A stretch of DNA of 64,000 nt from Stigmatella ashevillena (lineage in GTDB: Bacteria > Myxococcota > Myxococcia > Myxococcales > Myxococcaceae): positions 8,426,425 through 8,490,424 of the forward strand of contig NZ_JAQNDM010000002.1 in NCBI RefSeq assembly GCF_028368975.1. Reading direction: 5' to 3'. Below, piece after piece: positions 17,589 to 23,457 of the stretch (its first letter is position 1; every line of letters begins with the position of its first letter). The notes under the pieces are model-generated. The model was not told the DNA's origin. It saw nothing but the letters and a program-made list of their open reading frames with translations, and ran no database searches. Position numbers and translations under genes: made by a program.

Positions 17589-19109
17589 CTAGTGGTTGAG
17601 GATGGCCACGAGGCGGGCACCCGCCTCGGGCAGCGCCAGCGGCGTGCCTGAAATCTCCGTGGAGAGCGTCTCCGCGTCATCGGTCCCGCCCCTGGCGAAC
17701 AGCCCCTTGAGCCACTCCGCGGCGGAAGGGTTGCGCCAGAAGTCCTCGTTGAAGCGCTCCTGGAGCCAGGCGGTGAGCCGCGTCTCCAGAGCCCAGGCGC
17801 GCAGGTACCGTGCCGAGTAGAGCTGGGGGTCGACGTCGAAGAGGAAGTAGCCCGGGTGGGGCTCGACGAAGAGCGCCCGCCGCTGGCCGGCCGCGTATTG
17901 CTCGGCCCGCTCCTCCGAGGGCCCGTGGGTGAAGAGGGACAGTTCGTAGGGCAGCTTCGCGCAGTGCCGCCTCAGCACCGTCAAGGCCTGGAAGGCGGCG
18001 AGCCGGACGACATCCTTCGCCACGGGGGTGGGCAGCTGCAGGTAGCGCTTGAGCCACTCGGGAGAGAGCAGGAGGCGCTCGGTGAGGGCCGCGAAGCCCT
18101 CTGTGACGGAGGCATCCCCCAAGCGGCGCAGCTCCAAGGGCAGCGCTTCGCCGGCGTGGGCCCGGTGCTGGGCGTGGCCGGACTCGTGGAGCAGGTCTCC
18201 CAGCGCGTCCATGCCTCCCCGCGGCTGGAGCACCAGCCGGATTTCGTCGGGCACGCGCACCGTGGCAACGAAGGGGCGGCGCGCCTTGCCGGGCCTGGGC
18301 TCGTCATCGATGCGGATGCGTCCCCGGGCGGTGGGGGGAAAGTTCCAGTCATTCAGCCAGCGCATCACCGCGGGAATCAGGCTCTCGCGCAGGAAGAAGG
18401 TGTCCATCCAGGGGGCCTGGAGCGCGGCCTGCAAGTCATGCCGCCGGGCGTCCCCTCCGGGCAGCGAGCGCAGGGTGGGCTCGATTTTGTGCAGCACGTA
18501 GCCGAGGACGTCGCGGTAGGCATCCTCCGTGGCCCGCAGGGTGTCGTTCGCCGCTTCGACGAGCTTGCCCAGGGCGATGCCAGACACATCCTCCCTCAAG
18601 GTGGGATAGTCCTTGGCCCCGAGCAGCTCGGCGGTCCGCAGGGCTGCCTCCCGCCGCGCGCCGTACCGCCCCTTCTCCTTCCAGAGGAAGTTGCCCACCG
18701 CCCGCTCCAGCAGGGCTCGCCGTCCACGGTTCGGCTCGTGGGGAATCTGGGCGAGCGCCTCGCCGAAGGAGAGGGCCTGGTCGTCCACGGCCATGTGGGC
18801 CTTGGCCTCCAGCGCCGCCACCGCCTCCACGTCCTGCGCGGCGAGGCCCTCTTCGACTTGCCCGGCAATCAGCTCCCTCAGCAGCTGAAGGCGGCGCACT
18901 CCGAGCGGATCATTCTTGGCGCGGGCCTTTTCCAGCGCCTCGGTGGCGGCGGCGAAGCTCTCCGCCGAGGACAGCTCTGGGAAGGAGGCATGGAGGGCAG
19001 CGACGGGCAGCTCTGGGGAGAGGCCTGCGCCGTGGCGGTAATGGAGGTTGGCCAACTCGGCGAGAAAGTCGTCCAACCTCGCACGCACGGAGTGCACGGG
19101 ACGGTCCAT
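17589..19109 (-). CDS. M3-like zinc metallopeptidase
   Basis: The start at 19,109 (MDRPVHSVRA) is chosen because codon use and family-like sequence begin there; the frame stays open further upstream but without similarity to a protein. The 506-residue product is helical and carries HESGH, the HExxH zinc motif, followed about 25-30 residues later by SVTEGFA, where a glutamate can provide the third ligand. This layout is that of the M3/M32 metallopeptidase clan. No signal peptide is visible, so it probably degrades peptides in the cytoplasm. Divergent from the ECF sigma gene. Confidence 0.75.
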   Translation of the reverse strand: MDRPVHSVRARLDDFLAELANLHYRHGAGLSPELPVAALHASFPELSSAESFAAATEALEKARAKNDPLGVRRLQLLRELIAGQVEEGLAAQDVEAVAALEAKAHMAVDDQALSFGEALAQIPHEPNRGRRALLERAVGNFLWKEKGRYGARREAALRTAELLGAKDYPTLREDVSGIALGKLVEAANDTLRATEDAYRDVLGYVLHKIEPTLRSLPGGDARRHDLQAALQAPWMDTFFLRESLIPAVMRWLNDWNFPPTARGRIRIDDEPRPGKARRPFVATVRVPDEIRLVLQPRGGMDALGDLLHESGHAQHRAHAGEALPLELRRLGDASVTEGFAALTERLLLSPEWLKRYLQLPTPVAKDVVRLAAFQALTVLRRHCAKLPYELSLFTHGPSEERAEQYAAGQRRALFVEPHPGYFLFDVDPQLYSARYLRAWALETRLTAWLQERFNEDFWRNPSAAEWLKGLFARGGTDDAETLSTEISGTPLALPEAGARLVAILNH

Positions 19110-19256: not shown

Positions 19257-19940
19257 ATGCAAGCAAGGGAGCCCGTGGAATCCCTTTCGCGATGGGTCTT
19301 CTCTGTGCCAAGTAGCTTCCCTGTGGAGTTCCCGTTCCGATCCGCCAGCTCCCGTTCCCGGCAGCGGGCTCGGGAGCCTGAAGCTCCTGGAGGCCCCCGG
19401 GCCCCCGCTCCGGCGGCTGGCGACGCGGCGGAGTTTCAGCGGGTGCTCGCCAGCTGCGAGGCGAAGCTGGAGGAGCGGGCCCGCTTCCTGTGCCGGGGCA
19501 GAAACCCCTCGGATGCGCGGGACCTCTTGCAGGACACCTATGAGCGGGCCTTCCGGGCCTTTCACACGTACGACCGGAATGCGCCCCCCATGCCGTGGCT
19601 GGCGTCCATCCTCGTCCGGCGGTTTCTCGACATGTGCCGGCACGACAAGCGCCATCCCGAGCAGGAGTTCACCGAGGCCGAGGACCAGGCGAGCCAGGAG
19701 GCCGAGCCTTCCGAGCCCTGGGGGGGCTACACGCTGGACGATGTGTGGCGCGCCGTGGACCTGTTGCCCGAGGAGTTCCGGGACGTGGTGCGGTTGAAGG
19801 ACATGGAAGGCCTCTCGTACGCGCAGATCGGCAAGCGCCTGGGCCTCGCCCCCATGACGGTGGGGACCCGGATCTTCCGGGCGCGCAAGAAGCTGAAGGA
19901 CATTCTCCTGAAGCAGGCCGGCACGGGAGGCGAGCAATGA
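19257..19940 (+). CDS. ECF-type RNA polymerase sigma factor
   Basis: AGAGGAG six bases before ATG marks the start. The 227-residue protein begins with an unusual 55-residue Arg/Pro-rich extension. Region 2 follows (DARDLLQDTYERAFRAFHTY, then PWLASILVRRFLDMCR), and region 4 ends the protein (LPEEFRDVVRLKDMEGLSYAQIGKRLG and the recognition helix PMTVGTRIFRARKKL). There is no region 1.1 or 3, as expected for extracytoplasmic function sigma factors. Its stop codon overlaps the start of the anti-sigma/CHAT gene by four bases (ATGA), which points to stoichiometric coupled synthesis. Confidence 0.93.
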   Translation: MQAREPVESLSRWVFSVPSSFPVEFPFRSASSRSRQRAREPEAPGGPRAPAPAAGDAAEFQRVLASCEAKLEERARFLCRGRNPSDARDLLQDTYERAFRAFHTYDRNAPPMPWLASILVRRFLDMCRHDKRHPEQEFTEAEDQASQEAEPSEPWGGYTLDDVWRAVDLLPEEFRDVVRLKDMEGLSYAQIGKRLGLAPMTVGTRIFRARKKLKDILLKQAGTGGEQ

Positions 19941-22870
19941 CACCTTCCTGCGAGCAGCTGGCCGCCTTCGTGGATGGCGAGCTTTCCCCCCCGGAGGCAG
20001 AGGCCTTCCAGGCGCACCTGACGGGCTGTGAGGCCTGTCAGGCGGGCCTGATGGATCAGGTGCAAGCCAGCGTCGCGGTGCACGCCGCCGGAGAGACGTC
20101 CCGGAAGGGCACCCGGACGCCCTTCCAGCCTGCCTGGGCGCGGCGGAGGACCCGCGTCCTCGCGTTCGCCACGGGGGCTGTGGCCGTGCTCCTGCTCGGC
20201 GTCCTGGCGGTGCGCACGGCGGGGGCTCCCCCGAAGGATCCCCTGTTGCTGGCCCAGGCGGAGACGCGGCCTTTGGAGGGGTGGCTCAGCTACCCGGGCG
20301 CGGAGCGATACCGTCCCCTGGCCACGATGCGGAGCGGTTCGGCGAGTGCCGCGGCGTTGGATCACCGGATCCTCGCGGAACTGGAAGATCGCGGAGATTT
20401 CCACGGCGTGGCGACGGCGTACCTGCGCGCCGGGGAGTTCGAGCGCGCCGAGCAGTTCCTGGACCGTGTGCCCCGCTCGCCGGAAGTGGACAGTGACCGC
20501 GCGCTGGCGGCGTTGGGGCGGGGAGAGCACGAGCGCGCGTTGGTGCTGCTGGAGCACGCGCTGGCGTCGGCACCGGAGAGCCTGCGGGCTCACTGGAACC
20601 GGGGCGTCGTGCTGCGTGCGATGTCCTTGGAACTGGCCGCGTCGGTCGAGTTCCAGCGTGTCGCGGACAAGGCCGAGCCGGGCTGGAGCGAGGAGGCAAA
20701 GCAGCTCGCGGGCGGGCTTCGCACCACCGCGGAAGCACGCCAGAAGTCGTGGCAGGCCCTGACAGAGGCGGGGCAGGCGCTTGCGTTCCAGGGGACGCCC
20801 CTGCCCGCCGCCATGGTGCACCGCAACCCGGGAAGGGTGCGGCTGTACCTGTACCATGCGCTCCGGACTGCGACGTCGCAGGAGCAGGTGCTCGCGCTGC
20901 TGCCGCTGGCCCAGTCGCTGGACCAGGTGTCCAGAACGCGCACGGCGTCCAGCGCCGTCCAGCACGTGGCCCAGGCGAACTTCACGCGGCGCGCTCCCCT
21001 GGCGGAGACGTACCGCGCGCTGTTGCCGGATCCAGGGGCGCTGCCGCCTCCCGAGGCGGAGGCATACCTGGAACGGCTCCGTCGCTCGGGGGAGCACGAC
21101 CTGCTCCTGGGAGCCATTCTGCTGCTCGGTGCCGAGCGGCAGCACCTCGCCGAAGTGGAGCGGCTCGTTCAGGGGACGCAGGACGTCCTCTGGTACCGGG
21201 GGCCCCTGGTGAAGGCCCAGGCGTCGGAGGAGATGGCGCGGGGCGCGGGGCTCGCGGCCGAGCAGCGGCTCCGGGAGGCCGTGGAGGAGTACCGGCGGGC
21301 GGGCCTGGACTACCGGAGCATCGCGCTTCAAGAGGAACTCAGCACCCTCTACAACAAGTTGGATCGCCGCCGGGAGGCCATGGAGGTGGCGCGCGCGGCG
21401 CTCGAAGCCGCCCGCAGGACCGACGACTGGTTCCATGAGGACCTGCTCGTGTTCGACCTGGTGACCAGCGCCAGGCTGAGCCATGAGTCCGCGCTGGCCC
21501 GTGCCTACCTGGATGAGTACCTGCAACGCTCCCCTGAAGACTGCACGCGGCGCGCGGAGTACCACTATTTCCGGGCCCTGTTGGCCGTGGAGGCGCTGGA
21601 TGCCACGGGGGCGCGGCGCGAAGTCTCCCAGGCCCAGGCGTGCCCCGCAGCCCCGACGTTGTTCGAGATCGCCGTCTACGGGGACTTGCTCCGGTTCGGC
21701 GCGACCGAGGCCGAACGGGCGCGGGCCGAAGACCGGATCCGCCTCCTCCGTCAGGATTCCTCTCTCGAGCCGGACCAGCGCCTGCTGTTGGAGCACCTCG
21801 CGGGCCGCATCCTCATCGAGCGAGATCGCCCCTCGGGGCAACGGATCCTGCGAGAGGTCATCGCCGGGGCGGAGAAGCTGAGGGCGACCCACATCGAGGC
21901 GCGCAAGGCCTGGTCGCACAGCTACCAGGCCCTGGTCCGGGACGCGGGCAAGGCCGGGGAGTTCGACGCGGCCATCGCCCTGCTCTCCGCCGAACTCGAG
22001 CGGGACGCGCCGCCGGCATGCCTGCTGGCCGTGGCCGGACAGGACGAGCGGGTCCTCTTCATGGCACGAGGCCCCCGGGGCGACTCGCGGGGAGCGTACC
22101 TGGAGGGGCTCACCCGCTCCCTGCACGAGACGGTTCCCCCCGTCCCCGCGGCGCTGCTGGCCGTGCTCGAGGGCTGTGACACGGTGCAGGTGCTCGCGGA
22201 GCCCCTGCTTCAGGGGCGGCCCGGCCTGTTGGGACCGGACCGGGCCTGGAGCTACCTGGCCCCCAAGGTCCGGGGACCGCATGCCCCAGCGGCGGGGACC
22301 TCGTTCAAACACGTGGTGGTGTCGGACGTGGAACCTCCCGCCGCGTTGGGCCTGCCGCGCCTGCTGCCCTGGAGCCGCCCACCGGAACTGGGAGAGGTCC
22401 ACCTGCGGGGCCCCTCCGCGACCCCGGAGGCCGTGCTGGCCGAGCTCACCGATGCCACCCAGGTGGAGTTCCATGCGCATGGCCTGAGCCGCCTGGGATT
22501 CTCCGATGCGTCGTTTCTCGCGCTCTCTCCGGGAGCCGATGGCCGCTACGCCCTGACGGCGGCGGACCTTCAAGGCCGCTCCCTCCGAGGCGCCCCCTTG
22601 GTGTTGTTGGCGGCGTGCGAGGCCAACGTGGGGGCGCTGCGCTACCACGATGTGTGGAGCCTGCCCGCGGCCTTCATCCAGGCGGGGGCGAGCTCGGTGG
22701 TGGCCCCTTCTTCCCTGGTGCCGGACGCCGAGGTGGGCGCCTTCTTCCAGGAACTGCTCGAGCGCGTCGACCGGGGGGCCACCGCCGCGCGGGCCTTGCG
22801 CGACACCCGGGTGGCATGGCTCCAGAAGAAGCCCACGCGATGGGTGGAGGACCTGGTGGTGTTCGAATAA
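19937..22870 (+). CDS. Zinc-finger anti-sigma factor fused to TPR and CHAT protease domains
   Basis: GGGAGG six bases before ATG 19,937 and the ATGA overlap fix the start. Residues 1-40 form a zinc-binding anti-sigma domain (Cys5, His27, Cys31, Cys34). One membrane helix spans residues 74-92. A long helical region of TPR-like pairs follows, roughly residues 130-640. The C-terminal 250 residues form a CHAT caspase-like domain with His848 in FHAHG and Cys894 in LLAACEAN, spaced as in the catalytic dyad. The predicted topology puts the sigma-binding domain inside the cell and the TPR-CHAT part in the periplasm. A peptidase on the sensor side of an anti-sigma factor suggests signal-triggered proteolysis. 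Whether it cleaves itself or another target is unknown. Confidence 0.88.
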   Translation: MTPSCEQLAAFVDGELSPPEAEAFQAHLTGCEACQAGLMDQVQASVAVHAAGETSRKGTRTPFQPAWARRRTRVLAFATGAVAVLLLGVLAVRTAGAPPKDPLLLAQAETRPLEGWLSYPGAERYRPLATMRSGSASAAALDHRILAELEDRGDFHGVATAYLRAGEFERAEQFLDRVPRSPEVDSDRALAALGRGEHERALVLLEHALASAPESLRAHWNRGVVLRAMSLELAASVEFQRVADKAEPGWSEEAKQLAGGLRTTAEARQKSWQALTEAGQALAFQGTPLPAAMVHRNPGRVRLYLYHALRTATSQEQVLALLPLAQSLDQVSRTRTASSAVQHVAQANFTRRAPLAETYRALLPDPGALPPPEAEAYLERLRRSGEHDLLLGAILLLGAERQHLAEVERLVQGTQDVLWYRGPLVKAQASEEMARGAGLAAEQRLREAVEEYRRAGLDYRSIALQEELSTLYNKLDRRREAMEVARAALEAARRTDDWFHEDLLVFDLVTSARLSHESALARAYLDEYLQRSPEDCTRRAEYHYFRALLAVEALDATGARREVSQAQACPAAPTLFEIAVYGDLLRFGATEAERARAEDRIRLLRQDSSLEPDQRLLLEHLAGRILIERDRPSGQRILREVIAGAEKLRATHIEARKAWSHSYQALVRDAGKAGEFDAAIALLSAELERDAPPACLLAVAGQDERVLFMARGPRGDSRGAYLEGLTRSLHETVPPVPAALLAVLEGCDTVQVLAEPLLQGRPGLLGPDRAWSYLAPKVRGPHAPAAGTSFKHVVVSDVEPPAALGLPRLLPWSRPPELGEVHLRGPSATPEAVLAELTDATQVEFHAHGLSRLGFSDASFLALSPGADGRYALTAADLQGRSLRGAPLVLLAACEANVGALRYHDVWSLPAAFIQAGASSVVAPSSLVPDAEVGAFFQELLERVDRGATAARALRDTRVAWLQKKPTRWVEDLVVFE

Positions 22871-22941: not shown

Positions 22942-23457
22942 ATGAAGCGTGAACTCCTCCTGACGCTGCTCGCGGCGGGGACTGCAACGAGTGCCCTGGC
23001 CAAGGAGCCTCCCCGTGTCGTGGCCACCCCCCAGGCCACCACCCCTCACCAGGCCACGGTTCCCACGCAGGTGGCGGTTCCCAAGGCCATCCTGGCGACC
23101 CCCGTGGCCGAACCGACCTACTTCGATGTCGTGGGCTCCGATGACAAGGGGACCCGGGTGGCGACCTACCGGTACTTCCGGCGCACCCGGGAGATCTCCG
23201 TGCTGAAGCCCTCGCGGCAAATCGAGGACGTGGCGGCCTTCAGCAAGTTCAGCAGTCCGGGCGATTACGTGATCGCCGTGGCCCCCGAGAAGAAGCCGAA
23301 GCCCAATCCGCCCAACCCTGGCGAGGAGTTCCGGACCTCGTGGACGGTCCCCCGGGCGGAGCTTCAGGAAGCCATGGCGAAGATCCAAAGCAAGGTGCCG
23401 GCGGCGAAGAATTTCCTCGTCGGACAGTTTGTCGAGGACGCCCCCCTCGCGAAGTAA
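22942..23457 (+). CDS. Exported hypothetical protein downstream of the anti-sigma/CHAT gene
   Basis: GGAGG precedes ATG 22,942. The 171-residue product has a Sec signal peptide (cleavage near SALAKEP). A Thr/Ala/Val/Pro-rich linker comes next, then about 100 residues of mixed alpha/beta character with the segment VATYRYFRRTREISVLKPSRQ split by charged residues. It lies 71 bases after the CHAT gene on the same strand and would share its periplasmic compartment, so it could be a partner or substrate. No family recognised. Confidence 0.6.
   Translation: MKRELLLTLLAAGTATSALAKEPPRVVATPQATTPHQATVPTQVAVPKAILATPVAEPTYFDVVGSDDKGTRVATYRYFRRTREISVLKPSRQIEDVAAFSKFSSPGDYVIAVAPEKKPKPNPPNPGEEFRTSWTVPRAELQEAMAKIQSKVPAAKNFLVGQFVEDAPLAK

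Follow-up and report, generated by a model that had tools for sequence, protein, structure and literature searches.

A DdvA-type transmembrane anti-sigma factor with a caspase-like domain and its partner ECF sigma factor in Stigmatella ashevillena

Introduction

DdvA of Myxococcus xanthus is the anti-sigma factor of the extracytoplasmic function (ECF) sigma factor DdvS, and proteins of the DdvA type were first studied within an antiviral gene cluster. A structural study of 2024 reportedly found DdvA to form dimers and to carry a periplasmic tetratricopeptide repeat (TPR)-CHAT part of the separase/craspase type, and it is said to have proposed autoproteolysis in trans followed by cleavage by RseP. 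Here we describe an ECF sigma factor gene and the gene that overlaps its end, which encodes a DdvA-type transmembrane anti-sigma factor with a caspase-like (CHAT) domain, referred to below as P0001. They lie in a 64,000-nucleotide stretch of the Stigmatella ashevillena genome (assembly GCF_028368975.1, contig NZ_JAQNDM010000002.1, positions 8,426,425 to 8,490,424 of the forward strand), the whole of which is called the window and numbered from its first letter.

Several other described systems resemble this locus in part. The TPR-CHAT protease Csx29 of Craspase cleaves Csx30 and thereby lifts the inhibition of an ECF sigma factor, CASP-sigma (PMC10028731). It shares with P0001 the TPR-CHAT fold and the tie between a protease and an ECF sigma inhibitor, but Csx29 is cytoplasmic, RNA-guided and directed at a separate inhibitor, whereas in P0001 the protease domain and the anti-sigma domain form one membrane chain. 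The spacing between His and Cys is 43 residues in Csx29 (H615/C658; PMC10028731) and 46 in P0001. In the CalpL/CalpT/CalpS system a protease likewise frees an ECF sigma factor from its anti-sigma factor, but there it is a Lon protease activated by cyclic tetraadenylate (cA4), the components are separate proteins, and the system is linked to clustered regularly interspaced short palindromic repeats (CRISPR). RseA/DegS/RseP and other zinc-binding anti-sigma (ZAS) systems have a membrane anti-sigma factor, with two-step proteolysis expected as it is for P0001; the difference is that the candidate site-1 protease of P0001 lies within the anti-sigma chain. Separase and HetF also join helical repeats to a CHAT/C50-type protease domain, but they have no anti-sigma domain and serve other cellular roles.

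Results

P0001 is of the DdvA type by homology, by its CHCC zinc domain, single membrane helix and TPR-CHAT fold, and by the ECF gene beside it. A profile of 62 relatives searched against the PDB detected M. xanthus DdvA (8rot/8rw5, 991 aa) with an E value of 1.1e-280, as well as the DdvA N-terminal domain (8rlz), and P0001 alone aligned collinearly with 8rot in phmmer (residues 4-977 to 5-991; E 5.5e-112). Foldseek, run with the P0001 model, placed DdvA at ranks 1 and 2, followed by Csx29/TPR-CHAT and separase, and VIA-align superposed the model on 8rot over 863 residues (Z 42.5, root-mean-square deviation 3.9), compared with a Z score of about 22 against Csx29 and about 21 against separase. 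DdvA is the best full-length relative of P0001 among solved structures. The likeness to the DdvS/DdvA pair thus covers full-length collinear homology, zinc finger, membrane helix, TPR-CHAT part, cognate ECF partner and the retained His and Cys, at a sequence identity of ~35%. A preliminary description of the locus, made from its sequence, had set an anti-sigma factor that may carry its own CHAT protease apart from the usual kind, which separate site-1 and site-2 proteases cut; this arrangement already has a precedent in DdvA, a homologue over the full length whose structure has been solved by cryo-electron microscopy. The architecture is already known and the self-processing hypothesis is essentially the one reported for DdvA, so the novelty of both is low.

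The gene pair is real and conserved, and its features are collected in Table 1. Pfam sigma-70 region 2 and region 4 matches identify the upstream open reading frame (ORF) as an ECF sigma factor, as had been proposed. Its gene overlaps the anti-sigma gene by 4 nt (ATGA, 19937-19940), so that the stop codon of the one and the start codon of the other share nucleotides, and the P0001 codons have a strong coding bias, with a GC content of 0.88 at the third position. The zinc ligands of the anti-sigma domain are C5, H27, C31 and C34 (CHCC), with C5 lying just N-terminal of the Pfam match; in the family alignment H27, C31 and C34 are invariant and C5 is kept in 87%. Pfam TPR matches are weak and confined to residues 138-240, while the Pfam CHAT match covers residues 821-966 (E 6.2e-20). 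An AlphaFold2 model built with the 62 relatives (predicted local distance difference test score, pLDDT, 87.9; predicted template modelling score, pTM, 0.82) shows a CHAT-like domain on the C-terminal side of an alpha-solenoid. Pfam, hydropathy and the model therefore agree with the preliminary description that the zinc finger, one membrane helix, the TPR array and the CHAT dyad lie in a single chain. The juxtamembrane segment at residues 105-132, of which residues 111-130 are modelled confidently, is a candidate contact or cleavage site. Chance or an annotation artefact as the explanation of the pair is ruled out by the long collinear conservation and the high-confidence model.

Full-length relatives of P0001, at 28-93% identity, occur in many myxobacterial genomes, nearly all of its own family. 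Of 117 genomes from the order, 73 held between 1 and 8 matches each, and in a phylum-wide sample (E <= 1e-15) a single one of 66 matching genomes fell outside that family. The S. ashevillena genome itself encodes two full-length paralogues at 35% identity. Nearly all members of the family that have a zinc finger also have an ECF gene upstream.

Table 1. Features of the sigma/anti-sigma locus (window coordinates)
Feature	Position	Strand	Details
Conserved promoter-like block TGGAATCCCTTT-N18-TGCCAAGTA	19276..19314	+	From orthologue alignment; probably the operon's ECF promoter
ECF sigma factor	19323..19940	+	205 aa; probable GTG start, from orthologue conservation; Pfam sigma-70 r2/r4
DdvA-type transmembrane anti-sigma factor with TPR-CHAT (P0001)	19937..22870	+	977 aa, one chain
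zf-HC2 / ZAS zinc-binding anti-sigma domain	19952..20041	+	Residues 6-35; E 1.4e-9
Single transmembrane helix	20156..20212	+	Residues 74-92; hydropathy; net +5 on N-terminal side; family-wide charge bias
Conserved juxtamembrane periplasmic segment (predicted)	20249..20332	+	Residues 105-132; R111 and E114 conserved in 95%
TPR/alpha-solenoid	20348..22006	+	Residues 138-690; Pfam and model
Cys pair C536/C569, co-varying, probable disulfide	21542..21643	+	Both in 54, one in 0, neither in 8 of 62 sequences
CHAT domain including preceding beta-meander	22007..22867	+	Residues 691-977; Pfam, model and structural comparison
Cys pair C695/C747, invariant, probable disulfide	22019..22177	+	Both in 62/62 sequences
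Codon of predicted catalytic His848	22478..22480	+	Invariant
Codon of predicted catalytic Cys894	22616..22618	+	Invariant; sole conserved unpaired Cys of the predicted periplasmic part
Small secreted protein	22942..23457	+	171 aa; Sec-type signal peptide; 72 nt downstream of anti-sigma gene

The two residues named in the preliminary description as the CHAT dyad are present exactly as numbered, in the motifs FHAHG (His848) and LAACE (Cys894). H848, G849 and C894 are invariant in every covering sequence among the 62 aligned relatives, at identities down to 28%, while H846, two residues from H848, varies across the family. In the AlphaFold2 model H848 follows a strand at residues 842-846 and C894 a strand at residues 888-892, so at the level of sequence and predicted fold we did not find the loss of dyad geometry that had been named as an argument against a working protease.

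Across the family, positive charge is found before the membrane helix and much less of it after. By the positive-inside rule this strongly suggests that the N terminus lies inside and the TPR-CHAT part in the periplasm. The cysteines behind the helix are distributed in pairs. Besides the two pairs listed in Table 1, 279/304 has both members in 9 of the 62 sequences and neither in 53, and 452/461 has both in 57 and neither in 5, with no sequence keeping a single member of either. The three variable pairs were gained or lost at least five times on the tree, both members always together, a joint gain and loss that is therefore disulfide-like and fits an oxidising periplasm, with C894, the only conserved Cys after the membrane helix left without a partner, as a free nucleophile. 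The pairing thus supports both the periplasmic location of the TPR-CHAT part and the role of C894, and together with the charge bias it favours the earlier prediction that the CHAT domain is on the opposite side of the membrane from the sigma-binding domain. One difference from the DdvA branch is that the own-genome DdvA orthologue, L003, lacks the 536/569 pair found in P0001. To our knowledge, co-varying Cys pairs have not been reported before in DdvA-type proteins.

In a tree of 73 relatives, P0001 belongs to a clade of 19 (Shimodaira-Hasegawa-like approximate likelihood-ratio test, SH-aLRT, 100; stem length 0.79), hereafter the window clade. A DdvA-like clade of seven tree rows (SH-aLRT 99) includes both own-genome paralogues, of which L003 is the nearest to DdvA (1172 bits to 8rot). 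About 15 relatives, termed class B as distinct from the zinc-finger class A, have a short N terminus, a membrane helix, TPR and CHAT, with no zinc finger and no adjacent ECF gene (L039, L040, L048, L050, L055, L060, L061, L066 and L068-L074; 16 tree rows, including one truncated where its contig ends). The two classes are separated by four changes on the tree, at least two of them forced. We considered and rejected the explanation that class B is an artefact of truncated contigs: most of its ORFs lie inside contigs and have in-frame short N termini and a membrane helix. L075 and L076, which run into or near contig ends, were set aside, and L015 and L019 are truncated members of the window clade.

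The two clades differ in genomic setting. C25-peptidase and SAVED-CHAT relatives were found nearby in all 13 DdvA-clade loci. The own-genome paralogues L114 (G000:C2:2859000-2875000) and L115 (G000:C2:6825000-6841000) lie in loci of the cyclic oligonucleotide-based antiphage signalling system (CBASS) type, alongside an oligonucleotide cyclase, SAVED-CHAT, a C25 peptidase and a TRIP13-like AAA protein, with HNH-SAVED too in L114. In contrast, cyclase, SAVED-CHAT or C25 genes were found within about 5-8 kb in none of 11 window-clade loci, and PADLOC gave no match for the window pair. The neighbours of the pair are of housekeeping type: an acyl-CoA dehydrogenase, DUF2058, a formyl transferase with an ACT domain and a photolyase. 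The same gene order surrounds the pair in a second genome (G074, locus L116); in the distant orthologues L117, L121 and L126 only the trio of sigma factor, anti-sigma factor and small secreted protein is kept. Judged by gene content, the window clade appears to be a separate, non-defence branch, outside the CBASS/CRISPR islands in which the DdvA branch acts. In a comparison of the family alignment with the SAVED-CHAT protein of L115, the Cys motif alone aligned, and not significantly (Prob 0.6). Very long ORFs divergent from the DdvA-clade operons in L129 (9968-15001) and L144 (12625-17664) match SAVED-CHAT and probably represent further fusions of these modules. Divergent from the operon in the window itself is a gene for a 506-aa protein (17589-19109, minus strand) containing HESGHAQH, which resembles a zinc-peptidase motif; the protein had no Pfam match at E 0.001.

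A counterpart of the small secreted protein is encoded behind every window-clade orthologue with enough flanking sequence, and its identity drops to ~20% among orthologues whose anti-sigma factors stay at 58% or more. It matched no Pfam family above cut-off, and Foldseek, searched with a poor model (pLDDT 60.5), returned no match at E <= 0.001. A small secreted protein or lipoprotein gene also lies directly downstream in several class B members and many anti-sigma members (e.g. L122, L123, L124, L119 and L133). By hhalign no single family can be recognised among the small proteins of the different clades, although two groups are related to each other, and the small secreted neighbour of the window clade differs from the small protein of the DdvA clade. 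The DdvA-clade small protein, encoded between the anti-sigma and C25 genes, has no evident signal peptide (L114:7423-8118, L129:5308-6069, L115:11215-11691). It often carries a duplicated motif (EFLAFGV...VxFVxRGR) and has weak profile similarity to the lipoproteins of other clades.

The sigma ORF of the preliminary description stands, but its start at ATG 19257 probably does not. Across eight orthologues, conservation of the reading frame starts only at GTG 19323, and the promoter-like block lies upstream of that codon and would fall within the first 20 codons if ATG 19257 were the start; for these reasons GTG 19323 is the probable start. The strict pattern TGGANNNCCTTN{18,20}TGCNAANTA has a single match in the 10.95-Mb genome, at the window operon, and the reversed control has none. 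GTG 19323 lies just 3' of the -10-like element, a spacing that suggests a nearly leaderless transcript and an autoregulated promoter.

Discussion

We put at about one in two the probability that the ECF sigma factor is held by the DdvA-type anti-sigma factor and set free by a CHAT-dependent periplasmic cut followed by a site-2 cut. In the resting protein the zinc finger would trap the sigma factor at the membrane, on its cytoplasmic side. An envelope signal, perhaps transmitted by the TPR solenoid, the small secreted protein or both, would activate the CHAT protease, which would cut the periplasmic side of its own anti-sigma chain or of its dimer partner. A site-2 protease (M50, RseP-like) would still be needed, because a periplasmic cut cannot free the sigma factor alone; it would cut in the membrane, and the freed sigma factor would switch on its own operon, the small secreted protein included. 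The genome encodes M50 proteases, as do all 14 control genomes, and the conserved promoter-like block suggests that the operon is autoregulated.

The intact, invariant dyad and the separase/TPR-CHAT fold favour an anti-sigma factor that carries its own protease; three observations weigh against such self-cleavage. The His-Cys site of DdvA is said to be incomplete and to face the dimer interface. The Pfam CHAT match of P0001, with a score far above cut-off, spans only profile positions 123-271 of 289, while other CHAT proteins of the same genome match positions 2-289. These two points would suit a CHAT domain that is a pseudo-protease or ligand-binding sensor, in which a signal alters the shape of the protein and separate proteases cut it. 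We consider this improbable, as H848 and C894 are invariant down to 28% identity beside a varying H846, and it is not evident why a domain that only senses would require an unpaired periplasmic Cys. The third observation is that class B keeps both dyad residues. With the dyad kept in the absence of an anti-sigma domain, self-cleavage of the anti-sigma factor cannot be the only job of the CHAT domain, and class B argues for at least one protease substrate besides the anti-sigma chain.

An active periplasmic CHAT protease might thus act on another substrate altogether, for example the neighbouring small secreted protein, with the sigma factor released allosterically or by an ordinary site-1 protease. 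In its favour are the dyad-keeping relatives that lack both an anti-sigma domain and a sigma gene, the small secreted or lipoprotein genes downstream of several of them and of many anti-sigma members, and the action in trans of Csx29 and SAVED-CHAT (PMC10028731; PMC11229360); but the small proteins do not form one recognisable family across clades and some loci lack one, and we regard it as possible though rather unlikely. Still further from probable is control of an antiviral island by the window pair, as for DdvA. Homology to DdvA and the CBASS-type loci of the own-genome paralogues would fit that role, whereas the window-clade loci are free of the defence genes sought within about 5-8 kb, the neighbours are of housekeeping type, and the sole strict promoter match genome-wide is the pair's own operon; we think it very unlikely.

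More tentatively, a broader and somewhat doubtful proposal is that the disulfide-stabilised periplasmic TPR-CHAT part could be a general myxobacterial envelope sensor swapped between outputs, either fused to a zinc finger or anchored alone, with the secreted neighbour as ligand, inhibitor or substrate and the window pair as a non-antiviral example.

What is new here is the invariance of the dyad, the paired cysteines, the split between defence and non-defence branches, the secreted neighbour and the sisters that keep the dyad. Three of these, namely the dyad, the Cys pairs and the sisters without a zinc finger, yield directly testable predictions for a family in which DdvA is the one studied protein that we found. 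If self-cleavage is true, the protease that opens an envelope-stress cascade would be built into the anti-sigma factor itself, and a relative of separase and caspases would be at work in the periplasm. The window branch offers a setting apart from phage defence, in which it may be less difficult to identify the signal and the target.

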